From Schlesneria sp. (GTDB taxonomy: Bacteria > Planctomycetota > Planctomycetia > Planctomycetales > Planctomycetaceae), in assembly GCA_028291515.1 (NCBI GenBank), contig JAQGHU010000053.1, forward strand, positions 1 through 64,000: a stretch of 64,000 nt of DNA, written 5' to 3'. The position numbers were made by a program, and so were the translations under genes. Below the pieces are notes generated by a model, which was not told the DNA's origin, did no database searches, and saw only the letters and a program-made list of their open reading frames with translations. This document shows, one piece after another, positions 3,865 to 40,542 of this stretch. Within the stretch, counting starts at the first letter, position 1. Each line of letters begins with the position of its first letter.

Positions 3865-5384
3865 TGCGAGCGGAACGCCCACCGAAGCAACAGGAACTGT
3901 TGGCCGCCATCGACGGCTGGCACGCGAACGTGCTGACCGAGTCGGACGCGCTGTGGCTGAAGGATCAGTTGCGGAACAGCGAGCAGGCGCGGCGCATCTT
4001 TATTGAATACGGCGACATGCTGGCTTCGCTGGCGTTCACAGGCGAGGGAGACCTGGAAGAATCGGCTGACATCCTGCTCACTCGGGTGCTCGAAGCCGAA
4101 GAACGGACATCGCGCCGGTCCAGTTGGCAGCGCGTCGGCGTCGGGGCAGCCCTGACGGTGACGGCCATGTTGCTGCTCGGCGTCGGGTTCCTCTGTCTGC
4201 CATCTGCCGGTTCGCCCAAGTTGGCGGCGGTGCCCTCCACCGTCAAGGCCCTGGCCGTCGCCGTGGTGACCGATCTCTACACGCAGCCAGGGAAAAACAT
4301 CGCGGTGGAAGTGATCCGAGATGCGGTCGCGACGCATGGGCTTCGCATCGGCACAGCATTGCTCGCGAATGATGAATTGCGATTAGAGGATGACCAATCG
4401 TTCCTGGAATTGACGTTCACCGGCGGGGCGCGGCTGGTGCTGCAGGGGCCGGCGCACCTCGTTGTGGGAGCACCGTTGGCTGCGAGGCTGAAGGCCGGCC
4501 GCGCGGTCGGGTTCGTCCCTCCTGAGGCGGTTGGCTTTGTCTTAGATGTTCCCGGCGGCATCGTCCGCGACCTGGGGACCGAGTTCGCCGTGGATGCCGC
4601 GTCGGGCAACACTCAAGTCTCCGTGCTGACTGGGGTCGTCGAGTGTGAATTGGGCTCGACCCACGAGGAAAGAAAGTTGGCGCGGCTCGATCGAGGTGCC
4701 GGGGTGCGGATGGAACCTAGCTCTGGATCGTTTGTGCCGCTGGAAGGCTTGCCGAAATCACTGTCGCAGATCGTGGAATATCATACGGGGATCGTGGTCG
4801 TCCGCGGAGAAGCGGAGTTCGTCGCGATGGAGGCTCCTCTTCCATCGGAGGCCGGCAAATTTCCTTCGTCCTTAGCGCAAATTTATCCGGAACGTCAATA
4901 CATCTTCGTCAAGCGAGGCGATGATCCGAAGCAGCTTCTGTTGACCGATGCTAAGGGAAATCCAGGGACTAATGCACCCTTCATCTCGAAGGTCGTTCCA
5001 GAATCGCCCCAGCCGGGCGAACAGGCTTCCTTTTCGGTGGATTCTTACTTCCTTCGCGCGAGAGCGCCAACCAAAACGCCGCTGGTGATCACCGGTTCAG
5101 TGACGTTTCGCCGAGAAATTGTCGCCGCGTTGACGACGACGGATGCTCTGAGCGCGACGGATGAAGCGATGGCTCGACCCGAGTTCGCGGCCGATTGGAA
5201 AGAGCATGCGAATCGGTCCCGAGGGAGCGATGAAGGATCGGATCGGGTCACGATCAGTCCTGACGGCAAGACGTTGACATTTACTTTGCAGGCCAGTGGC
5301 GCCGGTGACGAGATGCGCATCCTGGTGCGGCATGGCACACCATCGGAAGTGGCTTTGGCAGCCCCCGTCGCTGGTTCACCGTGA
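3864..5384 (+). CDS. FecR-domain transmembrane regulator / anti-sigma-like protein
   Basis: 506 residues. The cytoplasmic N-terminus (1-90) begins with an anti-sigma-like helix pair (LLAAIDGWHANVLTESDALW, then LRNSEQARRIFIEYGDML). One transmembrane segment lies at about 91-113. A FecR domain spans about 158-260 (ELTFTGGARLVLQGPAHL; VPGGIVRDLGTEFAVD). The remaining 240 residues are extracytoplasmic with no clear match. The ATG at 3864 overlaps the sigma-gene stop, so the two are co-translated. FecR-type proteins sense an outer signal and control the cognate sigma factor. The downstream DUF1559 gene is a typical neighbour. Confidence 0.85.
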   Translation: MRAERPPKQQELLAAIDGWHANVLTESDALWLKDQLRNSEQARRIFIEYGDMLASLAFTGEGDLEESADILLTRVLEAEERTSRRSSWQRVGVGAALTVTAMLLLGVGFLCLPSAGSPKLAAVPSTVKALAVAVVTDLYTQPGKNIAVEVIRDAVATHGLRIGTALLANDELRLEDDQSFLELTFTGGARLVLQGPAHLVVGAPLAARLKAGRAVGFVPPEAVGFVLDVPGGIVRDLGTEFAVDAASGNTQVSVLTGVVECELGSTHEERKLARLDRGAGVRMEPSSGSFVPLEGLPKSLSQIVEYHTGIVVVRGEAEFVAMEAPLPSEAGKFPSSLAQIYPERQYIFVKRGDDPKQLLLTDAKGNPGTNAPFISKVVPESPQPGEQASFSVDSYFLRARAPTKTPLVITGSVTFRREIVAALTTTDALSATDEAMARPEFAADWKEHANRSRGSDEGSDRVTISPDGKTLTFTLQASGAGDEMRILVRHGTPSEVALAAPVAGSP

Positions 5385-5497
5385 CGGCGGCGGCCTTGAA
5401 GAACAGTGCAGATTGGACGGGCCAGTTTTTTATTGCATGTTAACACCGGGCTTGTGTCGCGACGGCCAAGCCATCCCACCATTTTCGGAGAGAGACT

Positions 5498-6643
5498 ATG
5501 CCTGGCAATTCCAATCTATCGCGTCGAGGCTTTACGTTGATCGAACTGCTCGTCGTGATCGCCATCATTGCGGTCCTGATCGCGCTGCTGTTGCCGGCTG
5601 TGCAGCAAGCGCGCGAGGCGGCGCGGCGGACGCAGTGCAAGAACAGTCTGAAGCAATTGGGTCTGGCGCTGCATAATTACCTGGGGACATATAACGTCTT
5701 TCCCTACGGCCGTGGAGGAACCGGGCATCCGGACGAGACAGGCCATCCCACCGCAACTGATACTGCGAATACGAACAACGACCACGCCAGCGGCTTTATC
5801 GGGCTGTTGGGATATCTCGATCAGGGGCCGCTCTATGGTGCGATCGCCTCACCGCAAACCATCGGCGGTACCACATACCCTGCGTTTGGACCGTGTCCGC
5901 CGGACGCCTCGATCTCCACATCGACCGGTGCCGCCAACATGAATTACACACCGTTCCAGACCAAGCTGTCGGTACTGATGTGTCCGTCGTCGCTGCCGCT
6001 CGGCACTGTCTACGGCGGGCCGACGAACTACGCCTTCTGTTGGGGAGATCGTGTCACGGGGATTTCCGCCGGAGAAACTTCGCCTGCCACACAGCGGCCG
6101 CTGACACGCTTCAACATGCGCGGTTTCGTCTCATTCCAGTCGTGTCGGCCCATTGCGTCGATCACGGACGGAACCAGCAATACCATCGCGATGGGCGAAA
6201 TCGCGACCGGCCCCAATGCAAGCGGTTACTTCGGCGGAGCCGCGTTGGCTCGCTCCACGATCACGGGCTCGCCGATTACGTGTCTGGCACAAGGGAGTCG
6301 CAGCACCGGGACGTTGTCCACCGGGACGAACAAAGCATTGCGCGGCAATGGCTGGGCCCAGGGGGCATTCATCTATACAGGGTTCAACACGATTACGCCG
6401 CCAAACTCACCCGCGTGTACTTCGACCGGCAACGATTACTCCGACGGCGTGGCGTCCACCAGCAGCTACCACCCCGGAGGGACGAACGTCCTGATGGCGG
6501 ACGGGGCCGTCCGGTTTGTCAGCGAGAACATCGACACCGGCAACATGGGCCACAGTGGCGACGTGACGATCGGGCCGTCCCCCTTTGGCGTGTGGGGAGC
6601 GTTGGGCACGATCTCGGGGTCCGAGGCCGTCGGGGAATTCTGA
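5498..6643 (+). CDS. DUF1559 prepilin-like protein
   Basis: 381 residues. Residues 9-35 carry a type II/IV prepilin leader ([19 protein letters not shown]) with Glu five residues after the cleavage site, followed by the planctomycete hallmark [17 protein letters not shown] and [11 protein letters not shown]. The C-terminus has the family end motif [17 protein letters not shown]. This is the DUF1559 family, hugely expanded in planctomycetes and thought to form pseudopilin-like surface structures. It is the first structural gene after the sigma/FecR pair, so it may be a target of that sigma factor (inference). Confidence 0.93.
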
Positions 6644-6692
6644 GAGGCCGCGACGTCAATGTCGTGGAAGCACGGATCTGGGGGGGGATATT

Positions 6693-7103
6693 ATGAGATT
6701 GAGTTCGATGGCGGCTGTCTGGGGCTTGGCAGCGCTGCTCTTGTCGGGATGCGGGAAGGGCAAGATTCCCAGACGACCCGAGTTGTTCAAGGTCTTCGGC
6801 AAGGTCACCTTCCAGAACAATCCGGTGGAGGGGGCCACCGTCGTCTTTGTGCCGCAAGCTCATTCCCATGCCGCCATGGGCGTGACCGACGCGAAGGGAA
6901 ACTTCCAATTGCAGACTTATCTCCCGGAAGACGGTGCCGCACCGGGTGCTTATCGAGTCATCGTCAAAAAGTGTTATTTCGATGATAAGGAGATCGAGCA
7001 TCAACTGCTTCCTCCGCCATACGCCACGCCGGACGAAAGCGGGCTGACCGCGGATGTCGAGGCCGGCCTCAATAACAATTTCTGCTTTGATTTGACGGAA
7101 TGA
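6693..7103 (+). CDS. small lipoprotein with carboxypeptidase-regulatory-like fold
   Basis: 136 residues. The leader MRLSSMAAVWGLAALLLSGC ends in a lipobox (LLSGC, Cys20). The mature part reads as a beta-sandwich: VFGKVTFQNNPVEGATVVF, then VTDAKGNFQLQTY and GAYRVIVKK, the usual pattern of the carboxypeptidase regulatory-like/transthyretin-like proteins found after DUF1559 genes in planctomycetes. Start 6693 was preferred because it gives a proper lipoprotein leader and a G-rich ribosome-binding stretch; the same frame is open upstream to 6585. Probably anchored in a membrane; partner unknown. Confidence 0.82.
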   Translation: MRLSSMAAVWGLAALLLSGCGKGKIPRRPELFKVFGKVTFQNNPVEGATVVFVPQAHSHAAMGVTDAKGNFQLQTYLPEDGAAPGAYRVIVKKCYFDDKEIEHQLLPPPYATPDESGLTADVEAGLNNNFCFDLTE

Positions 7104-7188
7104 ACATCACCGAGTTTGGCGTCGCTCAGCGAAGCGAGCCGCCCGGCAACCCTGACAGATGTACACACCATTTTTCTGAAGAGAGAAC

Positions 7189-8250
7189 ATGAACTTTCAG
7201 GCATCATTCACCGTCGGTTTGATCCTCGCCGGGCTCTTGCTGCCGCGTCCTGCTGCGACGGCAGAGACGCTGGATTCAACACCAGATGGTTCCTTTAGCA
7301 TCGTGCTGATTCCCGACACCCAGGCCTACAAAGGGGAAGGGATCAAAGGGGGCTCCGCGGACAATCACGACCCGGTAACCAATCCCATCTTCGCCGCGCA
7401 TACGAAGTGGATCGTCGACAACCTGGGCCGGCAGAAGATCGCCTTCGTCAGCCATGTCGGTGACATCGTCGACATCAACGACCGCCGGCAGTGGAAGGTC
7501 GCCCGAGAATGCATGGATGCGATTCATGACAAGGTCCCCTACGGCATCTCTGTCGGAAACCACGACATGACGACCAAGGGGGACTCGTCGTTGTTCCAGG
7601 AGTATTTCCCGCAATCCCGGTTCGAGAAATTCAGTTGGTATGGAGGCTGCTTCCCAGGTTCCGAAGACCGTCCCCAGATTTCCGGCAACAATGCGAACAG
7701 CTATCAACTCTTCACTGCGGGTGGTCTACCGTTTGTCTTTCTGCATTTGGAATGCAATGCGCCGGACGATGTCGTCAAGTGGGCCAACGAGATTCTCGAC
7801 CAACACAAGGACCGACGCGCGCTGATTACGTGCCATATGGGCTGGGGCCCTCGCCTCAAGCCGAAAACGGACGACGAGTATGTCACGGGTGAAAAGGGTC
7901 GCATGGAATGGGTCAAGATCCACGGCACTCGCGGCAACTCGCCGCAGCAGCTGTGGGAGAAATGCTATCGCCGGCATCCGCACCTGATCGCGGTCTTCTC
8001 CGGCGACCAAAGCCGCACGCAAGCCTACCACGCCGCCACGGCAGGAGATCACGGCAACGTCATCCACGAGTTCATGCAGGATTACAGCACCGGCTGGCTC
8101 CGGCTCTACAGATTCCAACCCACTGAGAATCGTATCCGAGTCTTCACGTTCGATCCCAAAACAGAAGAACTCTGCCCCGGCACCAAACTTGTTAAGGCAC
8201 CCCGCGACCACCAGTTTGAAATCCAATGCCCGCTGCTTTCCAAGAAATAG
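7189..8250 (+). CDS. secreted calcineurin-like metallophosphoesterase
   Basis: 353 residues with a signal peptide (MNFQASFTVGLILAGLLL, cleavage near ATA). Metal-binding motifs of the calcineurin-like fold appear in order: IPDTQAYK (a DxQ variant of the usual DxH), HVGDIVD, GNHDM, a histidine in ITCHMGW, and FSGDQSR near the end. It should hydrolyse phosphomonoesters or diesters outside the cytoplasm; similar planctomycete proteins have unknown substrates. A leader-like ATG at 7189 follows GAAGAGAGAAC. It is 85 bases downstream of the lipoprotein gene and may be in the same transcript. Confidence 0.88.
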   Translation: MNFQASFTVGLILAGLLLPRPAATAETLDSTPDGSFSIVLIPDTQAYKGEGIKGGSADNHDPVTNPIFAAHTKWIVDNLGRQKIAFVSHVGDIVDINDRRQWKVARECMDAIHDKVPYGISVGNHDMTTKGDSSLFQEYFPQSRFEKFSWYGGCFPGSEDRPQISGNNANSYQLFTAGGLPFVFLHLECNAPDDVVKWANEILDQHKDRRALITCHMGWGPRLKPKTDDEYVTGEKGRMEWVKIHGTRGNSPQQLWEKCYRRHPHLIAVFSGDQSRTQAYHAATAGDHGNVIHEFMQDYSTGWLRLYRFQPTENRIRVFTFDPKTEELCPGTKLVKAPRDHQFEIQCPLLSKK

Positions 8251-8576
8251 CGAGATTTGCGACCTCGTTAAGGGGATGTGGATAGTCCGCGCCATCAATA
8301 GATGCAATCCCTGATTTCTCGGAGACCGAGCATCATGTGGTCTCGAGATTTGATACCCGAGGGCGTCGTCATACTGTACGCAGTTTTGTGAGCAAGAGGT
8401 GGATGACACCACGCTCTCCTCAGATTCTGAAGATTTGAGGAACTGTAGGTCACTTCAGATTCGATGCTCGACAGTGTTGTTGGTGGGCCGTAGCATCATG
8501 GGTTGCTCCAGATTCAACTCTTGGTGAATGACTCCTCTTGTCACTCGACCGCTCGGCATATCGAAGGATCTTCAAC
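8251..8576. other. gene-free stretch
   Basis: About 325 bases without a plausible gene. I see no repeat of the families found elsewhere and no clear terminator. It should hold the promoter of the TPR-DUF1549 gene. Confidence 0.4.
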
Positions 8577-11500
8577 GTGATTCGTATCGCGACTGGATTG
8601 GTCTGTGGAAATCGGCTTTCTCTGTTCAGTTTCGTAACGGCGTTAACGTGCTGCCTGGGTGCGATGGCCTATGCGGCAGATGCTCCGCCACCACCGCCAA
8701 AATCGGAAAAAGAACCACGGATAGACGCTGTGGTCCCCGGCGGCCGCGCGAAGCTCGAAAAGGGTGAATGGGATGCCGTCATCGCCGAGACCACGGTAAT
8801 TCTGAACGGCGATGCTGAAAACGTGATCGCGCTGCTGATGCGCGGAATCGCCCTGAACGGAAAGGGTGACTATGACGCCGCCATCAAGGACCTGACGAAG
8901 GCCAGCTCCAAGCCGTCGAGCGATCTCACGACGCGTGATATTCGAGCCGACGCCTTTTCCAACCTGTCGGTGTCGTACTACCGCAAGGACAAGTTCCTGC
9001 CCGCGATCGACAATGCGTGGTTCGCATTGCTCGAAAAGGGCGACCACTTCGAAGCGCATAACAACCGCGCTTTGGCGTATATCGGACGCGGACAGTACGA
9101 CAAGGCGATCGGCAGTGCTGACGCAGCGATTCGGGCCAAAGAAGATTTTGCCGACGCCTACAGCACGCGTGGCCTGGCCTACTTCTTCAAAAACAATGTC
9201 GATCAGGCGATGAAGGATCAAACCAAGGCGATCGAACTGCAGTCCAAGTTGGCCGTCGCTTACCAGCGTCGCGCGGCTGTCGTCGCGGCCAAGGGCGAGT
9301 TCCCGAAAGCGCTGGAAGACTTGGACAAGGCCATCAGCACCAAGCCCGATTTTGCCGACGCCATTTGCGATCGCGCCTGTTTGTACGGCATGGCTCGCAA
9401 CCTCCCCAAGATGGTTTCGGAACTCGATGGTTTGACCAAATCGAATCCGTCATTCGCTCGTGCGTATTACCACCGAGCCATGCTGAGTGTCGATCAAAAG
9501 AAATATGACCTGTCGATGGATGACCTGGACCAGGCCATCAAATTGAAGGACGGCTTCGCCGCAGCGTATTGCCTGCGAGGGTACGCTCAAACGAACCGCA
9601 AGAATCTGGACGAAGCCGTCGCCGATTTCACAAAGGCTATCGAATCCGACCCCAAACTCGTCAACGCCTACAAAGGCCGAGCGGCTGCGTATCAGAAGCT
9701 GAAGAAGGCCAAGGAAGCGAAAGCGGATCAGGACAAGGTCGCGGAACTGCAACCGACGCCACCGCCAAAGCCGGCGTCGAATGCCAAGAAGCCGGAAGAC
9801 CCGACCCCACGGTTTACCGTGAGTTCTAAAGAGGTATCCCCAGCGAAGCTGAAGGAAGCCCTGAAGTCCGCCGCCGAGATCGACAAGCTGGTCCAGGCGA
9901 ACTACAAGAAGTTCGATGTCACTCCGCTTCCCAAGACGCCCGATGAGCAGTTCTTGCGGCGAGTCTATCTCGATGTCACGGGCACGATCCCGTCGTATCA
10001 GCATGTGAAGAAATTCCGCAATAACAATTCTGCGAACAAGCGAGCGGAATTGATCGACGAACTGCTCAATAGCCCTGCCTACGCCGGCAACTTCTTCAAC
10101 TATTGGGCTGACGTCCTGCGATACACCGACAACCTGAGCGGAAATGTCCGTGGCGAGCCGTACCGGCAGTGGATCAAGCAATCGCTGGCCGAAAACAAGC
10201 CCTGGGACAAGCTGGTTTACGAAATGCTGACGGCCTCCGGTCGCGTCTGGGAAAACCCAGCCACGGGATACTTCCAGCGCGACCCCAATATGCCGCTGGA
10301 CGTCATGAACAACACCGTCCGTATCTTCCTGGGAACGCGGATTGGCTGTGCCCAATGCCACAACCATCCATTCGATCGCTGGACGCAGAAAGAGTTCTAT
10401 GAAATGGCCGCGTTCACATTTGGAACGCAGCAAAACACCCATGGGGGCGACAAGCGATACTGGAACTCCAACCCGCATGAACGCCTGCAGGCGGACTTTG
10501 CCGACATCGAACAGGAAGAAGAAGATCGCCGGAACAATTACTACCGCTTCGAACGGATGATCGGCGTCAACATGCAGATCGTCAACGATCAGGTGGATCG
10601 CAAGATCCAGCTCCCTGCAAATTACACCTATGACAACGCCAAGCCGAACGAAACGGTGGCTCCGCGAACGCTTTTCGGCTCCCAGGTATCGCTGAAACCC
10701 GGCGAGACCCCTCGTCAGGGATTCGCCCGCTGGTGTACCGCTTCAGACAATCCGCGCTTCGCCAAAGTCATCGCGAACCGATTGTGGAAACAAGTCTTCG
10801 GTGTCGGCCAGATCGAACCCGTCGACGACATGATGGATGACACCGTCGCCGAGAACCCGGCCTTGATGGACTACCTGGAAGCCGAAATGAAACGGCTGAA
10901 CTTCGATATGAAAGAGTATCTGCGCGTCCTGCTGAACACAGAAACATACCAGCGACAAGTCTGCGTGGACGAAATTCCGCTCGGTGCCCCTTATCACTTC
11001 CCTGGCCCCATGCTGCGACGCATGAGTGCCGAACAAGTTTGGGATTCGTTCCTGACATTGGCCGTGGTCGACCCTGACGAGTTCCGCGAACTCCCCGCCA
11101 AAGTTCGCACCGACGTGATTGGTTTCAACCTCGACACGGTTTCGGCCAAGAAAGTTCTGGATGCAGAATCAAAGGGCTCCGAAATTGATAACGGCGTCAA
11201 CTCAAAGCGTCAGCAGAAGTACACGTACAAGGGGATCGTGCTGGCTCGTGCATCCGAACTGCCGTCTCCAGTTCCAGCAAATCACTTCTTGCGTTCGTTC
11301 GGTCAGTCGGATCGAGAATTGATTTCGTCATCGTCGTCGACAGGATCGGTGCCGCAAGTGCTGTTCATGTTCAATGGTCCGATCACGCACATGCTGCTGG
11401 AAAAGAATTCCACGATTTACCTCAACGTCGTGAAGCAGAAGAACGTGAACGACGCGACGAAGATCATCTTCGAAACGATCCTCACCCGCGAACCGGATGC

Positions 11501-33863: not shown

Positions 33864-35105
33864 TCACGCCATCGCGGTGTGCGCCTTGACCGCTTCCCCG
33901 ATCAACGCCAGCGTTTCGTCGAGTTCTGGACGGAATAGATCGCCGATCAACAAGTCGGTAATGTCCCCCTTGCGGTTTGGATGCTGTGACACGAACTTGC
34001 CGAAGCTGAGGCCTGAGTAATACGCCAGCACGAGTTGCCGCATTCGTTCCATGCCGCGGAAGTAGTCTGCTTCCCAGCCTCGCAGCTTGGCTTCCGACGT
34101 ATCTCCGGCCGCTAAGCCTTCGCAGATTGCATCCGCCGCCAGTTGGCCTGACTTCAAGGCGAGCAGTACGCCTGACGAATAGAGCGGGTCGAGGAAGCCG
34201 AGGGCATCACCGACCAGGGCCCACCCGTTACCAGCAACCTGCTTCGAGCGATAGGAATACTCTTTCGCGGCGCGATAGATATCCGATCGTTTCGCGTTGA
34301 CGATGCGCTGCTTGACTGCAGGACACTTCTCAAGCTCTTCGTTGTAGATCGTTTCGAAGTCCTTCGAGGTGCGGTTCTTGAACAGGTAGTCGTGCGAGGC
34401 CACGATCCCGACGCTGACGATGTTGTCGTGCAGCGGGATGTACCAGAACCAGCCTGCTTTGCCCTGCACCTGCAGGACGACGGTGGCTCCTTCGTCATGG
34501 CCGGTGTCGCGATAGGCTCCTTCCCAATAGGTCCAGCAGGCGGCCTTCTTGAGTTCAGCGTCCCATTCCCGCAGACCGAGCTTACCTTGAATCAGTGTGC
34601 TCTGGCCGCTGGCATCGACAATCACGTCGGCTCGTTCGATTCGTTCTTCGCCGTTCTCGTCCTGCAAGCGGACGCCGACTGCGCGATCACCTTCAAACAA
34701 GACTTCGAGCACGCGAACGCCCTGCTGCACGTCCACGCCATGTTCGACGGCGTTGTTCAGCATCATCTCGTCGAATTCACTGCGTCGCACCTGCCAGGTC
34801 TGCGACGATTCGTGTGGCTTGTGATCGACGAAGTAGAACGGCTCTGACAGCCGGCCGCTGGAGCCGACGAACTGCACGCTGTACTTCTTGATGTAGTGAC
34901 TGGCCTTCATTTTGGGCAGCATGTTCAGCCGCTGGAGCACCCAGTAGGTCTGCGGAATCAGCGATTCGCCGATATGAAATCGAGGCCCTTTTTCTCGCTC
35001 GTACAACCGGACCTTATAGCCCTTCTGAGCGATCAACGTGGAGACAGTGGATCCCGACGGACCGCCGCCGATGACGATGACATTGGGTGTGGTGGATTGG
35101 GTCAT
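33864..35105 (-). CDS. FAD-dependent oxidoreductase, halogenase / geranylgeranyl reductase-like
   Basis: 413 residues. The FAD-binding Rossmann motif is VIVIGGGPSGSTVSTLIAQ at 9-27, followed by YEREKGPRFHIGESLIPQTY, typical of tryptophan halogenase-like flavoproteins. A second FAD motif is WALVGDALGFLDPLYSSGV. The halogenase WxWxIP region appears as GWFWYIPLHDNIVSVGIV, with a tyrosine in place of the middle residue. True halogenases also carry a catalytic lysine that I did not locate. It could instead be a hydroxylase or reductase. A MarR-type regulator gene lies 38 bases upstream in the same direction and likely controls it. Confidence 0.85.
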   Translation of the reverse strand: MTQSTTPNVIVIGGGPSGSTVSTLIAQKGYKVRLYEREKGPRFHIGESLIPQTYWVLQRLNMLPKMKASHYIKKYSVQFVGSSGRLSEPFYFVDHKPHESSQTWQVRRSEFDEMMLNNAVEHGVDVQQGVRVLEVLFEGDRAVGVRLQDENGEERIERADVIVDASGQSTLIQGKLGLREWDAELKKAACWTYWEGAYRDTGHDEGATVVLQVQGKAGWFWYIPLHDNIVSVGIVASHDYLFKNRTSKDFETIYNEELEKCPAVKQRIVNAKRSDIYRAAKEYSYRSKQVAGNGWALVGDALGFLDPLYSSGVLLALKSGQLAADAICEGLAAGDTSEAKLRGWEADYFRGMERMRQLVLAYYSGLSFGKFVSQHPNRKGDITDLLIGDLFRPELDETLALIGEAVKAHTAMA

Positions 35106-35143: not shown

Positions 35144-35638
35144 TCAGGGTTTACGCCAACTGCTGCCGACTTCTTCATGGGGCTGCCGCACCGTTTGCAA
35201 CAACTCGACGAGTTGTTTCAGGTCGCGAGCGGGCAGATGTCCGAGTTGTCGCTTGTGGCAGTCTTGAACAGCGTCGGACAACTTGGCCAGTAACTTCAAG
35301 CCAGCCGGTGTAATGCCCACTTCCACGACGCGACGGTTTTCGGGACGTCGTTCGCGATGAACGAATCCTCGCTCTTCCAGCCGATCGAGCATCCGCGTCA
35401 TATCGGGAGCTCGCGAGATCAGCCGCGTTCCCAGCGTCAGCGTGGGGACAGTCGCCGGATGCGCCGCCTCCAGCAGACGCAGCGCATTGTATTGCTGGGC
35501 GGAAAGATCGAACGACGAAAACAGTTCGTCTTCCAGCGCCTTTAAGCGGTCGTACGTCCTCCACAGGCTGAGGTAAGCCTGCTGGTAGAGCGAATCGAAC
35601 CGCGGAGCGCGAAGATCTGGTGCGGCTGGTGTGGGCAT
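35144..35638 (-). CDS. MarR family transcriptional regulator
   Basis: 164 residues. The winged-helix core reads LSAQQYNALRLLEAAHPATV, LTLGTRLISRAPDMTRMLDR and GFVHRERRPENRRVVEVGIT, the three signature segments of MarR proteins (recognition helix ISRAPDMTRMLDRLEERG and the wing with RRPENRR). Helices at both ends should form the dimer interface. MarR proteins are mostly repressors released by small phenolic or oxidising ligands. It precedes the flavoprotein gene by 38 bases on the same strand, so the pair is likely an operon with autoregulation. I did not find a clear operator. Confidence 0.92.
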   Translation of the reverse strand: MPTPAAPDLRAPRFDSLYQQAYLSLWRTYDRLKALEDELFSSFDLSAQQYNALRLLEAAHPATVPTLTLGTRLISRAPDMTRMLDRLEERGFVHRERRPENRRVVEVGITPAGLKLLAKLSDAVQDCHKRQLGHLPARDLKQLVELLQTVRQPHEEVGSSWRKP

Positions 35639-37032: not shown

Positions 37033-37998
37033 ATGGATGAAACGAGCCCAACTCCGAACGTCGCCATTCGGAAGCCGTGGCGGCGATTGATGGCGCTTGC
37101 CTCGATTGGCGTCGTTGTCATTCTGAGCGTCGCGATCTGGAGCCACTATCGCTTTGCCCGGCCGGTGGGATCTGGTCCGGCGGGGCCGACTGTTGTCAAG
37201 GAAGCGTTTCAGAAGCCGTGGACCGAACGCAAGGTGGTCCTGCTGGGACTTGGCGATAGTGTCACTCAAGGGTTGGGGGCCAGCACCGGTGGCTATGCGT
37301 ACTTTCAACGACTGGCGCGCAACCCGGCGGACGAGTTTCCCGAGATGCAAGGAGTCTGCCTGTCACATGTCCTGCCCAAGCTGGAAACGGTGAACCTCGC
37401 GATCTCGGGAACGACGTCCATCGAATGCGTCGACTATCAACTTCCGAAGTTGAAGCCCTATGACGAAGACACGTTTGGAATCGTGGTCATCACGACCGGC
37501 GGCAACGATGTGATACACAACTACGGCCGCACGCCACCGCGCGAAGGGGCGATGTATGGTGCGAAGGTCGATCAAGTCACCGAGTGGGCGAAGAACTTTG
37601 ATGCTCGCCTGGAACAGATCGCGGTCAAGGTTCGCGAAACGTTTCCGAGCGGCTGCCACATTTTTATCGCCAACGTCTACGATCCGACCGATGGCGACGG
37701 CGACATCGTCTACGCCGGATTGCCGGCATGGGCAGACGGAGTCAAAGTCCTGGCGCTGTACAACAGCGTGCTCGCGGAATTCGCGAAACGACACGACGAT
37801 GTGGAACTCGTCAACATGCGAGCGGTCTTCCTAGGACACGGCATCCACTGCACTCAGTTCTGGCATCACGCGTATTGCGCGCAAGATCCGCACTATTGGT
37901 ATTGGGATAACCTCGAAGATCCCAACGACCGCGGCTATGACGCGCTTCGACGAGCGTTCCTGATCGAGATGGCTCGCGTGGTGCCGGCGAAACTCTGA
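37033..37998 (+). CDS. membrane-anchored SGNH/GDSL hydrolase
   Basis: 321 residues. An uncleaved N-terminal membrane helix lies at about 20-38 (MALASIGVVVILSVAIWS). The catalytic Ser76 is in LLGLGDSVTQGLGAS (block I), the oxyanion Gly follows in VNLAISGTTSIECVDYQL, and Asn is in VITTGGNDVIHNYG (block III). A C-terminal Asp/His (IHCTQFWHHAYC or CAQDPHYW) should complete the site. Members are esterases or lipases with loose substrate range; it should act outside the cytoplasm. Start MDETSPTPN follows GGGGGAATTTCC. Confidence 0.85.
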   Translation: MDETSPTPNVAIRKPWRRLMALASIGVVVILSVAIWSHYRFARPVGSGPAGPTVVKEAFQKPWTERKVVLLGLGDSVTQGLGASTGGYAYFQRLARNPADEFPEMQGVCLSHVLPKLETVNLAISGTTSIECVDYQLPKLKPYDEDTFGIVVITTGGNDVIHNYGRTPPREGAMYGAKVDQVTEWAKNFDARLEQIAVKVRETFPSGCHIFIANVYDPTDGDGDIVYAGLPAWADGVKVLALYNSVLAEFAKRHDDVELVNMRAVFLGHGIHCTQFWHHAYCAQDPHYWYWDNLEDPNDRGYDALRRAFLIEMARVVPAKL

Positions 37999-38103: not shown

Positions 38104-39582
38104 ATGACAGCCATTCTACCGCTGCGGGATTACACCTTCCTCGGGATCACTCAGTCACTGTGTCCCGAGTGCCTGGTCGTGGTCCCCGCCAAAATACTGG
38201 TTCGTGAGAATCGAGTTTACTTCCGTAAGACCTGTCCGACTCATGGTGTTCGCGAAGATTTTGTCTGCAGCGATGCGAAGCAATACGACCGCATGGAATT
38301 CAGCGTCCCAGGCAAGGTGCCGCGCGAAGTGGGAGTGGAGCCTGACAAGGGCTGCCCGCTCGACTGCGGTCTTTGTACCGAGCACGAGCAACATACTTGC
38401 ATTGGCCTGGTCGAACTGACTGAGTCGTGCAATCTGAAGTGCCCAATGTGCTATTCATCGAGCGGTCCTGGCGGGCGGCACGTCTCATACGAGGATTGCA
38501 TCGCGGCGATCGAGCGACTGATCACCGTCGAGGGACGCCCCGAAGTTCTGCAGCTATCCGGCGGTGAACCGACAATTCACCCTGAGTTCGAAAAGATCCT
38601 GGCCTATGCGGTTAGTCGACCTATCGACATCGTGATGATCAATACAAATGGCGTCCGCATCGCTCACGATCCGGCATTCATCGAGCGACTGGCTGAATTC
38701 CGCACGCGAATAGAAGTCTATCTGCAATTCGATGGCTTGCGAGATGAAACGTATACCGCGCTGCGCGGCGAACCGTTGGCAGCGACCAAGCAGAAAGCAG
38801 TCGCCGCTCTGGGCAAAGCGGGCATCCGCACGATCCTCGTGACGACGTTACAAACAGATGTGAATGATGACGAGATCGGCGAGATTGTGAAATTTGGTTT
38901 GGATCGTCCTTGGGTGACAGGTGTCAGCTTTCAGCCAGCCACCTACTCGGGGCGTACGGAGTTACCGGAGTCGTTGGAGCGCCGTATCACTTTCCCCGAT
39001 GTGATTCGCCACATTGCTGCTCAGACCGATGGAATCTTTCGCGAAGACGATTTCCTGCCATTGCCGTGTGCTCATCCGAATTGCCATCAACTGACATACG
39101 CTTACCGATCCAACGGTCAGGTGGTCCCACTACTACGATTCATCAACGCGATGGAGAATCTTGATCTGCTGGCCAACGGAATCACGTTCACGCGTGCCCG
39201 CGCCCGCCAGTTAATCGAACGCTATCTCAGACGACTCGGCTGTTGTGCGGGAGGCGATTGTGGCGGGTCACCATCACTTGTCGAATTGGCCAACGATGCC
39301 AATGCCCTTCCACAAATCACTGACGACACAGACAGCGCCGTCGGCAAGGCTTCGCAAGAGTTTTTCGCGCGAGCATTGCTTGAGAAGCTCGATCCCGAGG
39401 ATGTCTTTCGCATCACCATCACATCCTTTCTGGACCCATACAACTTTGACGTTCGCCGAGTCATGAAGTGTTGCGTTCATAACGTTTTACCCAGCGGTCA
39501 TATTGTTCCGTTCTGTGCTTACAACACACTTTATCGTCCTGGAATCGTGCCACTGCCGACGTTGACGTCGATCAGACGGTAG
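38104..39582 (+). CDS. radical SAM protein of the Tes / MJ0619 type
   Basis: 492 residues. The family is recognised by cysteine layout: a zinc-like pair C20-x2-C23 with C44 (CPECL; RKTCPTHG), a second cluster C84, C88, C91 (GCPLDCGLC), and the radical SAM triad CNLKCPMC at C109, C113, C116. Later come LSGGEPTIHPEF and QFDGLRDETYTALRG. More cysteines lie near the end (LGCCAGGDCGGS; VMKCCVHNVLPSGHIVPFC) for further iron-sulfur clusters. This pattern matches the tetraether/membrane-spanning lipid synthase group of archaea and its bacterial relatives, which couple lipid tails by C-C bond formation. The actual substrate is unknown. An Lgt-like membrane protein follows after 31 bases. Confidence 0.88.
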   Translation: MTAILPLRDYTFLGITQSLCPECLVVVPAKILVRENRVYFRKTCPTHGVREDFVCSDAKQYDRMEFSVPGKVPREVGVEPDKGCPLDCGLCTEHEQHTCIGLVELTESCNLKCPMCYSSSGPGGRHVSYEDCIAAIERLITVEGRPEVLQLSGGEPTIHPEFEKILAYAVSRPIDIVMINTNGVRIAHDPAFIERLAEFRTRIEVYLQFDGLRDETYTALRGEPLAATKQKAVAALGKAGIRTILVTTLQTDVNDDEIGEIVKFGLDRPWVTGVSFQPATYSGRTELPESLERRITFPDVIRHIAAQTDGIFREDDFLPLPCAHPNCHQLTYAYRSNGQVVPLLRFINAMENLDLLANGITFTRARARQLIERYLRRLGCCAGGDCGGSPSLVELANDANALPQITDDTDSAVGKASQEFFARALLEKLDPEDVFRITITSFLDPYNFDVRRVMKCCVHNVLPSGHIVPFCAYNTLYRPGIVPLPTLTSIRR

Positions 39583-39613
39583 CAGGTTCTGCCAATTCTA
39601 TTAGCGATCGACG

Positions 39614-40318
39614 ATGAAAGTTCCCGCACTTTATCCCGTGATCATGCTGACCGCGCTGGTGGCGGGCGTCGTCTTGTCTCGTCAGCGACAAGCTCGGATG
39701 GGACTCACGATCGCGCAGCGTTGGGCAGTTGCCTTGGGCGCATTTTGCGGAGGGATGCTCGGCAGCAAGCTCCCCTTCGCACTGGCTGATACTCGAGGCC
39801 CTCTCTGTGCGCAAGCCTGGATCGGCGACGGGAAGACCATTCTGTTCGGACTGGTTGGTGGCTACCTGGGCGTCGAACTTGCGAAAGCGATCGTCGGCCT
39901 CAAGACCAAGACAGGGGATTCGTTTGCAGTGCCAGTGGCCGTTTCGATTGGCATCGGCCGCATCGGCTGCTATGTGGGCGGATGCTGTTACGGCACACCG
40001 ACCTCTCTTCCCTGGGGAGTCAACTTCGGAGACGGAGTCTGCCGCCACCCGACTCAGATCTATGAGATGATCTTTCACCTCACCGCGGCCACCGTGCTAA
40101 TTGTCTTGGAACGAAGACATCTGTTTCCGAATCAGCGTCTTAAGCTCTATCTGCTAGCCTATTGCGTGTACCGAGTGTTGTCGGAGTTTGTGCGTCCGGA
40201 AGTGTCGCTGGCCGGTGGACTGACTGGCTATCAGTGGGTTTCACTGTTCTTGATTCCCGTCATTCTTTGGTTGTGGTGGCGCGATCGCGCGATTCTCGAA
40301 AGGGGCAATGCAACATGA
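39614..40318 (+). CDS. Lgt-like polytopic membrane protein (divergent)
   Basis: 234 residues, about six hydrophobic helices. It resembles prolipoprotein diacylglyceryl transferase: the signature region is GRIGCYVGGCCYGTPTSLPW at 115-134, followed by VCRHPTQIYEM, where the HPTQ-Y-E motif is typical. True Lgt has GRIGNFINGE; here the Asn and Glu become Cys (positions 119 and 124), so the diacylglyceryl transfer chemistry is doubtful. The two-Cys version seems to be a separate family. Its stop overlaps the next gene's start (ATGA) and it lies 31 bases after the radical SAM gene, so the three act together (inference). Confidence 0.85.
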   Translation: MKVPALYPVIMLTALVAGVVLSRQRQARMGLTIAQRWAVALGAFCGGMLGSKLPFALADTRGPLCAQAWIGDGKTILFGLVGGYLGVELAKAIVGLKTKTGDSFAVPVAVSIGIGRIGCYVGGCCYGTPTSLPWGVNFGDGVCRHPTQIYEMIFHLTAATVLIVLERRHLFPNQRLKLYLLAYCVYRVLSEFVRPEVSLAGGLTGYQWVSLFLIPVILWLWWRDRAILERGNAT

Positions 40319-40542
40319 ATTCTGACACACCAGAGGTAGACGACTCAGATCCTGAAATGGCTCCCTGCCCCCGTTGCAGGAAGCAAATTGATATTAATCA
40401 CTCTGCTTGTCCACATTGCGGTCATCGCATCAGGACCACCGGGATCTCGCCATTGCTGATCGTGGGCCTGATCTTTGGCATCCCGGCGGCGATCGTGATT
40501 TCAGGAGTGCTCCTGCTGGTGGCCATCTGCGCCATGGGGTGA
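40315..40542 (+). CDS. small zinc-ribbon membrane peptide
   Basis: 75 residues. A zinc-ribbon pair is CPRC ... CPHC at about 18-37 (APCPRCRKQIDINHSACPHC), followed by a single membrane helix (LIVGLIFGIPAAIVISGVLL). The ATG overlaps the stop of the Lgt-like gene by 4 bases (ATGA), which shows translational coupling. It may be an assembly or regulatory subunit of the radical SAM/Lgt-like pair. The convergent EEP gene ends 25 bases downstream. Confidence 0.75.
   Translation: MNSDTPEVDDSDPEMAPCPRCRKQIDINHSACPHCGHRIRTTGISPLLIVGLIFGIPAAIVISGVLLLVAICAMG

Follow-up and report, generated by a model that had tools for sequence, protein, structure and literature searches.

The described systems closest to the locus reported here are the archaeal radical S-adenosylmethionine (SAM) enzyme Tes, also called GDGT-MAS (MJ0619; structures 7TOL and 7TOM), the TrsS family of radical SAM proteins with their DVU_1556-family methyltransferase partners, and the lipoprotein enzyme Lgt (E. 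coli structure 5AZB). HMPTM is an older name of MJ0619, and so of Tes, and the ligands of the M. jannaschii enzyme are described as C9-x2-C12-x20-C33-x2-H36, C73/C77/C80 plus a His, a Cx3Cx2C motif, and a C-terminal cluster with a labile Met439 (PMC9433317). The same source gives Met439 and Tyr459 as completely conserved in archaeal homologues, and reports that the M. jannaschii enzyme retains activity as an M439A variant (PMC9433317). For E. coli Lgt, H103 is reported to be essential, with H103A, H103N, H103Q, H103R and H103Y all inactive; the HGGL motif around H103 is proposed to be part of the peptide site, and R143 and R239 are placed at the phospholipid (PMC4728403). Variants with Y, W or F at position 103 are on record, as are distant Lgt proteins in which N146 and E151 are replaced by C or C/D (PMC13251419). 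Here we describe three adjacent genes in a 64,000-nucleotide stretch of a Schlesneria sp. genome (assembly GCA_028291515.1, contig JAQGHU010000053.1, positions 1 to 64,000; "the window" below, meaning this whole stretch). They encode a Tes/TrsS-like radical SAM protein, an Lgt-like integral membrane protein and a small membrane protein with Cys in its C-terminal tail, and we suggest that they may form a dedicated system.

The window is contig C39 of an 8.6 Mb source genome in 119 contigs. On its + strand the radical SAM gene (38104-39582, ATG start, 492 aa) is followed after 31 bases by the Lgt-like gene (39614-40318, 234 aa), whose TGA stop codon overlaps, as ATGA, the start of a 75-codon gene (40315-40542). 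The original prediction, made from the sequence of the window alone, had described this layout, and its coordinates, spacing, overlap and motif all hold. We find that the three genes are conserved together well beyond this genome. Our favoured reading, which we put forward with a little less than even confidence, is that the Lgt-like protein lipidates the C-terminal Cys of small membrane proteins while the radical SAM protein performs radical chemistry on the lipid or the peptide. The enzymes are variants of known families; what appears to be new is their association and the candidate clients. A literature search showed, among the titles listed, no description of the trio, and no paper naming Tes/GDGT-MAS together with Lgt; the study that named TrsS (Haft and Tolstoy 2025) lay outside the reach of that search.

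The recurrence of the gene pair is the first line of evidence. Among 294 planctomycete genomes, 53 have the radical SAM protein at E ≤ 1e-20, and 40 loci were taken from these with their flanks; 26 of the 40 contain an Lgt-like gene. From at least 551 relatives in a scan of named genomes, the 80 best loci were kept, and 48 of these have an Lgt-like match, one of them (L110) weak. With the window counted in and L110 counted out, the Lgt-like gene lies within 6 kb of the radical SAM gene, on the same strand, in 74 of 121 loci, and several of the loci that lack it sit near contig ends. In a separate set of new loci, described below, it is present in 34 of 35. Searching from the other side, we found a strong Lgt-like match (E ≤ 1e-20) in 29 of the 294 planctomycete genomes, and all of these except G146 and G211 (27 of 29) have the radical SAM protein. 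The cut-off matters, as at E ≤ 1e-8 the Lgt-like query matches 94 of the 294 genomes, necessarily including those with ordinary Lgt. Chance adjacency is ruled out, since the pair recurs across phyla. The order of the two genes also differs between the two clades described below, with the radical SAM gene first in clade A and the Lgt-like gene mostly first in clade B, which favours a functional tie. The module is nonetheless patchy, through either loss or transfer: none of the six genomes of the same genus (G294-G299) has a full-length radical SAM gene, and only two of the 17 family genomes among those listed have one, the window's own and G216.

The window radical SAM protein resembles Tes over its full length. 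It matches Pfam Radical_SAM (81 bits) and Zn_ribbon_HMPTM (65 bits), and its closest solved structure is M. jannaschii Tes (7TOL/7TOM), with 30% identity and E 2e-77 by sequence and a template modelling (TM) score of 0.79 for the predicted structure. The rubredoxin-type site C20-x2-C23-x20-C44-x2-H47, the N-terminal cluster motif C84/C88/C91 plus His, and the radical SAM cluster motif C109/C113/C116 all match the Tes spacings. Three further Cys, present in every one of 19 archaeal Tes, have window equivalents in C327, C456 and C471, which, to judge by their conservation, would bind the C-terminal cluster. The Tes ligand set is fully present, as the original prediction of a Tes/MJ0619 cysteine layout had it. 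Even so, the protein reaches the cut-off of neither of its two best NCBIfam models, TrsS (NF045646; 354.4 bits against 490) and Tes (NF045702; 306.5 bits, or 294.8 in the genome search, against 450). All 19 Tes rows have M and Y at the Met439 and Tyr459 sites, where the window protein has T440 and N460; the first site is T in 21 of 21 clade A rows, and none of the 20 clade A letters printed for the second is Y. Because the M439A variant stays active, the loss of Met439 marks kinship and is no proof of another reaction. The window protein also has Cys that Tes lacks (C99, C322, C380, C381, C386 and C457), of which C99, C322, C380 and C457 are conserved across the three bacterial groups but missing from archaeal Tes or without an aligned counterpart there. 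The C322 site of clade B appears as a P-x-P-C motif in 58 of 62 rows, the C322 column being off by one for that clade in the main alignment.

One of the extra Cys has a possible selenocysteine counterpart elsewhere. At the alignment site of window Cys386, the radical SAM gene of L058 (8244-9644, genome G115) has an in-frame TGA, in the motif CC..GES[U]G, and L059 (G109), unlike L058, has Cys. The G115 genome has SelA over cut-off, and the L058 protein is likely a selenocysteine version, while the window's own genome gave no SelA match. This site is a candidate counterpart of the selenocysteine/Cys position of TrsS.

In phylogeny, the window protein falls outside archaeal Tes. A 135-row tree built with a quick method divides into four main groups, namely archaeal Tes, one whose partner is mostly a methyltransferase, clade A (21 planctomycete rows, the window among them) and clade B (62 rows from Bacteroidota, Bacillota, Cyanobacteriota, Melainabacteria, Pseudomonadota and Planctomycetota, and one from Chloroflexota). 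Nine rows stand outside these groups (L036, L042, L047, L049, L050, L053, L066, L178 and L186). A more careful 57-row tree took 13 of the 21 clade A rows, 16 of the 62 in clade B, 14 of the 24 in the methyltransferase group and 14 of the 19 Tes, and none of the nine stray rows. Clades A and B together form a single clade, with support of 100/100 in the 57-row tree and 87 by the Shimodaira-Hasegawa-like approximate likelihood ratio test (SH-aLRT) in the 135-row tree. A clade uniting clade A with archaeal Tes was rejected on the 57-row tree by the approximately unbiased (AU) test (p 0.0197), for which the groups were named only after the 135-row tree had been viewed. No grouping with a characterised unrelated enzyme appeared. 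The candidate identity of the window protein as a plain Tes orthologue is ruled out by the sub-cut-off score, the AU rejection and the loss of Met439 and Tyr459.

In the A+B clade the usual partner is an Lgt-like protein. Among the 83 rows of A+B in the 135-row tree, 69 have an Lgt-like partner, one has a methyltransferase, and for 13 neither partner was found; the pair that had been singled out from gene order in one genome is thus conserved in one clade. Within that clade the putative C-terminal cluster ligands are not uniformly kept. Clade A has C at each of the C327, C456 and C471 columns in 17 of 21 rows, whereas the 62 rows of clade B have S or T in the C456 column (59), D or E in the C471 column (61), and A or S (43) or C (17) in the C327 column. 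Since clade B keeps the same partners, a Tes-type coupling cluster is probably not needed for the function that the two clades share. The methyltransferase group, whose members have C99, C322, C380 and C457, mostly carries a DVU_1556-like partner, though both methyltransferases that were scanned score under that model's cut-off. In no locus do an Lgt-like gene and a methyltransferase both lie within 3 kb on the same strand; in L096 and L137 a DVU_1556-cluster methyltransferase is present at another place in the locus. The 74 Lgt-like loci include four from Chloroflexota, of which three (L098, L115 and L122) fall among the methyltransferase group in the 135-row tree.

Several loci show other arrangements of the radical SAM gene. 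In a neighbouring clade, with loci in the range L091-L128, a DVU_1556-like methyltransferase lies downstream of it in place of the Lgt-like gene, for example at L092:9383-10174. Two Thaumarchaeota, L099 and L110, share this arrangement, and their genomes also have Tes over cut-off. In the planctomycete loci L036, L042, L047 and L066, two or more Tes-like radical SAM genes are clustered, no Lgt-like gene was found, and the proteins form a separate deep group. L245, a Mycolicibacterium vanbaalenii plasmid, has a methyltransferase gene after its radical SAM gene, whose product belongs to the superfamily (36% identical to a Flavobacterium member); the two adjoin CcdA and a protein disulfide oxidoreductase.

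The Lgt-like protein appears to retain the phospholipid side of Lgt while differing on the side proposed to hold the peptide. It scores 97.4 bits against Pfam LGT but only 39.9 against the TIGR00544 equivalog (cut-off 118.9). Its predicted fold (mean predicted local distance difference test, pLDDT, 95) has E. coli Lgt (5AZB) as its sole Foldseek match at E ≤ 0.001, with Z 14.5 and a root-mean-square deviation of 4.3 over 230 aligned residues. A second, housekeeping Lgt elsewhere in the genome (G000:C83, signature GRIGCFLNGCCYG) exceeds the TIGR00544 cut-off, and through it we mapped the Lgt-like residues to E. coli numbering. The Lgt signature of the window protein, GRIGCYVGGCCYG (residues 115-127; 39956-39994, + strand), contains the equivalents of R143, of N146 as C and of E151 as C. 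The original prediction took the two Cys to set this protein apart from ordinary Lgt. The Cys are there, but the housekeeping Lgt of the same genome has Cys at both positions too, and these residues are ruled out as a mark of special function. The N146 position is C in 69 of 73 Lgt-like sequences (C119 in the window) and also in 15 of 27 canonical planctomycete Lgt (those that aligned out of 30 loci retrieved, with the genome's own among them), which makes it a lineage trait; Chloroflexota L090 and L098 have Asn there, as in ordinary Lgt. On the alignment, the change that distinguishes the Lgt-like family lies instead at the H103 position, with R143, Y235 and R239 kept. That position is V in 31, M in 15 and L in 15 of the 73 (61 in all, the rest scattered or gapped; L in the window), and none of the 72 Lgt-like entries printed is H or Y, whereas canonical planctomycete Lgt have Y in 13, H in 13 and I in one. 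R143 is kept in 71 of 73, and Y235 and R239 in 73 of 73 (window R116, Y183 and R187). Invariant in 65 Lgt-like sequences are K91, G101, G115, R116, C119, G123, Y183 and R187, and E88 is conserved along with K91. Because R143, Y235 and R239 are retained, a link to lipids or lipoproteins is likely, and this much of the lipid or lipoprotein modification system first proposed for the locus stands. The part that envisaged membrane-spanning or branched lipids is not supported, given a radical SAM protein outside the Tes clade, the absence of Met439 and Tyr459, and the replaced cluster Cys of clade B.

The third gene was originally noted as a zinc-ribbon membrane peptide; it is indeed the third component, but it had gone unrecognised as one case of a recurrent kind of small protein with a C-terminal Cys. 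The window protein has a zinc-ribbon-like N-terminus with two CxxC pairs (CPRC..CPHC), which zinc-ribbon models match below cut-off only (best E 1e-4), and one hydrophobic stretch. Its tail, LLLVAICAMG, has only three residues after the Cys (residue 72; TGC codon at 40528-40530, + strand), which is our putative modification site. In lipoprotein precursors, the lipobox [LVI][ASTVI][GAS]C follows an N-terminal signal peptide. The small proteins resemble such precursors in having a positive segment, a hydrophobic helix and then a Cys at the predicted outer face, and differ in that the Cys is C-terminal with few residues after it and often has I, T or V at position -1; the window protein does not have its Cys of interest in an N-terminal lipobox. 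Positive charge stays on the inner side of a membrane helix under the positive-inside rule, and with a mean of 2.56 K/R in the 12 residues before the last helix and 0.23 after the Cys, the Cys is predicted on the outer face.

Many loci have small membrane open reading frames (ORFs) downstream of, between or upstream of the radical SAM and Lgt-like genes. Under a strict pattern, in which the last hydrophobic stretch ends at a Cys no more than 22 residues from the C terminus, such Cys-tail ORFs number 70 in 231.4 kb near Lgt-like loci (0.302 per kb), against 15 in 793.4 kb far away on the same strand (0.019 per kb) and 21 in 1182.1 kb on the other strand (0.018 per kb). Near methyltransferase loci there are two in 68.1 kb, both within one locus. 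By locus, the pattern occurs in 49 of 74 with an Lgt-like gene, one of 25 with a methyltransferase and five of 22 where neither partner was found. The 49 comprise 19 of 22 Bacteroidota, four of four Chloroflexota, three of four Bacillota, two of two Melainabacteria, the window itself (one of one), and Planctomycetota at 17 of 26 in the planctomycete genome set and three of 10 in the named-genome scan. When small ORFs were selected blind to Cys, a Cys in the last 22 residues was found in 66 of 79 near the pair, 23 of 54 antisense (p 1.5e-6) and 17 of 29 far away (p 0.01). The new loci came from 299 genomes of a Paenibacillus class (20 carriers), 198 of a Flavobacterium phylum (16 carriers) and a Persicobacter plasmid, giving 37 loci of which two were the query loci, with no near-copies among the new (1 kb, 95%). 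A small Cys-tail ORF is present in 28 of the 35 new loci, and antisense ORFs of the same pattern in four of 37, query loci included.

Small-gene number grows beside single enzymes. Two or more client-type ORFs occur in nine of 22 Bacteroidota loci. In G216, of the same family as the window's genome (L055, - strand, 4534-10498), 3.7 kb with about eight small membrane genes separates the radical SAM and Lgt-like genes; with start codons chosen by hand, a Cys lies within the final 22 residues of six of these and is missing there from the other two, and the Cys-blind filter retained six, four with Cys and two without. The array is followed by a gene that by eye resembles a cysteine desulfurase. 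A zinc-ribbon-like start (CxxC..CxxC/H) is found in 16 of 70 small proteins, as it is in the window's, and no family cut-off was reached by the small proteins scanned, 10 with Pfam and four with NCBIfam.

Co-conservation, small-gene copy growth beside single enzymes, the outward Cys and the phospholipid-binding Lgt fold lead us to see the small proteins as clients whose Cys may receive a lipid or a group derived from one. The product of 40315-40542 would then be the client in the window; with its last helix predicted to run N-in/C-out, its Cys would sit on the outer side of the membrane, as does the Lgt active site. The Lgt-like enzyme would hold a phospholipid through R116, Y183 and R187 and move a diacylglyceryl-type group onto the C-terminal Cys, and its altered HGGL/H103 region, the proposed lipobox-peptide site of normal Lgt, would fit a different acceptor. 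The Tes-like enzyme would act by radical chemistry, either on that lipid or on the client. A bolder version, which is possible though doubtful, is a so far undescribed C-terminal lipidation in which the Lgt paralogue lipidates the outer-end Cys of small multi-pass or zinc-ribbon proteins and the Tes-like enzyme joins or alters the lipid tail, amounting to an inverted lipobox and perhaps to a tail-linked lipid-protein conjugate.

A number of observations weigh against C-terminal lipidation. Only 27 of the 53 planctomycete genomes with the radical SAM protein at E ≤ 1e-20 have a strong Lgt-like match, and 26 of 40 at a radical SAM E ≤ 1e-60. The H103 replacements made in E. coli Lgt are inactive, so the L of the window protein might mean that it has no transferase activity. 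The strict Cys-tail pattern was defined after viewing the loci, which leaves the 35 new loci as the sole independent test, and 25 of the 74 Lgt-like loci have no ORF that fits it, including four of four Pseudomonadota, one of one Cyanobacteriota and seven of 10 Planctomycetota of the named-genome scan. At least two members of the L055 array have no Cys. The residue before the Cys does not make a true lipobox, being mostly I, A, T or V over 66 Cys-tail ORFs, and the small proteins of different phyla share a layout but may not be homologous. Finally, radical SAM enzymes act in the cytosol, whereas the client Cys is predicted outside.

This last difficulty is shared by the alternative in which the small protein is matured in the manner of ribosomally synthesized and post-translationally modified peptides (RiPPs). 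The radical SAM enzyme would act on it at the Cys or close by, forming a thioether or through other C-H chemistry, with the Lgt-like protein as a membrane platform or processing factor without transferase activity. The tandem arrays of small genes suit this idea, and a client thiolate could be bound by the extra conserved Cys that Tes does not have (C99, C322, C380 and C457). Among solved structures, SkfB ranks second to Tes as a neighbour of the radical SAM protein, though at a much lower score and over less than half of the protein's length (TM 0.37, 221 columns). We consider this unlikely, since the near-complete retention of R143, Y235 and R239 suggests phospholipid chemistry. In another alternative, the radical SAM enzyme would modify a membrane-soluble small molecule or free lipid, with the Lgt-like protein as its carrier or transferase and the zinc-ribbon proteins as regulators or anchors. 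The ribbons in 16 of the 70 small proteins and the lack of family matches are compatible with that role; against it, the Cys-tail layout recurs while the ribbon is optional, and arrays of copies suit clients better than regulators, so that we regard it as distinctly unlikely.

The reading closest to the original prediction, with the radical SAM enzyme coupling lipid tails into membrane-spanning or branched lipids that the Lgt-like protein presents or transfers, draws on real similarity: Tes is the closest solved structure, C327, C456 and C471 are kept in the window, and the loss of Met439 alone excludes nothing. Bacterial Tes homologues, including those of Planctomycetota, have moreover been proposed as candidates for the synthesis of branched glycerol dialkyl glycerol tetraethers (brGDGTs), a proposal that these sources present as experimentally unconfirmed (PMC8941075, PMC11868695). 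The rejected union with Tes, the replacement of Met439 and Tyr459 by T440 and N460, and a clade B that shares the partners with C456 and C471 replaced nevertheless make such coupling improbable here. Lower still in our estimation, and very improbable, is a TrsS/DVU_1556-type system, possibly related to metalloids or selenium, with the Lgt-like protein in the place of the methyltransferase. TrsS is the top NCBIfam model for the window protein, the neighbouring clade carries DVU_1556-like methyltransferases, and L058 combines its in-frame TGA with SelA in the same genome. On the other hand, nine of nine radical SAM proteins scanned, the window's included, fall below the TrsS cut-off of 490 bits, the window protein belongs to a different clade, and the two partners never stand together within 3 kb on one strand. 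C-terminal lipidation of the small proteins therefore remains the reading that we tentatively favour.

Upstream of the three genes, a GDSL/SGNH hydrolase gene (37033-37998, + strand) ends 105 bases before the radical SAM gene; it gave no tblastn match in the 40 planctomycete radical SAM loci and probably lies outside the module. The downstream neighbour, on the opposite strand, is an endonuclease/exonuclease/phosphatase-family gene by Pfam. Farther upstream, 33864-35105 (- strand) encodes a FAD-dependent protein of the tryptophan-halogenase family (Pfam 109 bits), adjoined by an ORF at 35144-35638 that looks MarR-type by eye.

Overall, the locus provides a testable three-part module, with candidate substrates, that spans several bacterial phyla and occurs in cultured Paenibacillus, Flavobacterium and Hymenobacter strains. 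It also calls for caution, as not every bacterial Tes homologue should be taken to indicate membrane-spanning lipids. Criteria published for Tes homologues are a BLASTP E < 1e-50, identity > 20% and length > 400 (PMC8941075), and would very likely include proteins like that of the window (30% identity and E 2e-77, under other search settings), yet most of the A+B clade has other residues at two of the three C-terminal cluster Cys. If the lipidation reading is true, lipoprotein modification would extend beyond N-terminal lipoboxes.

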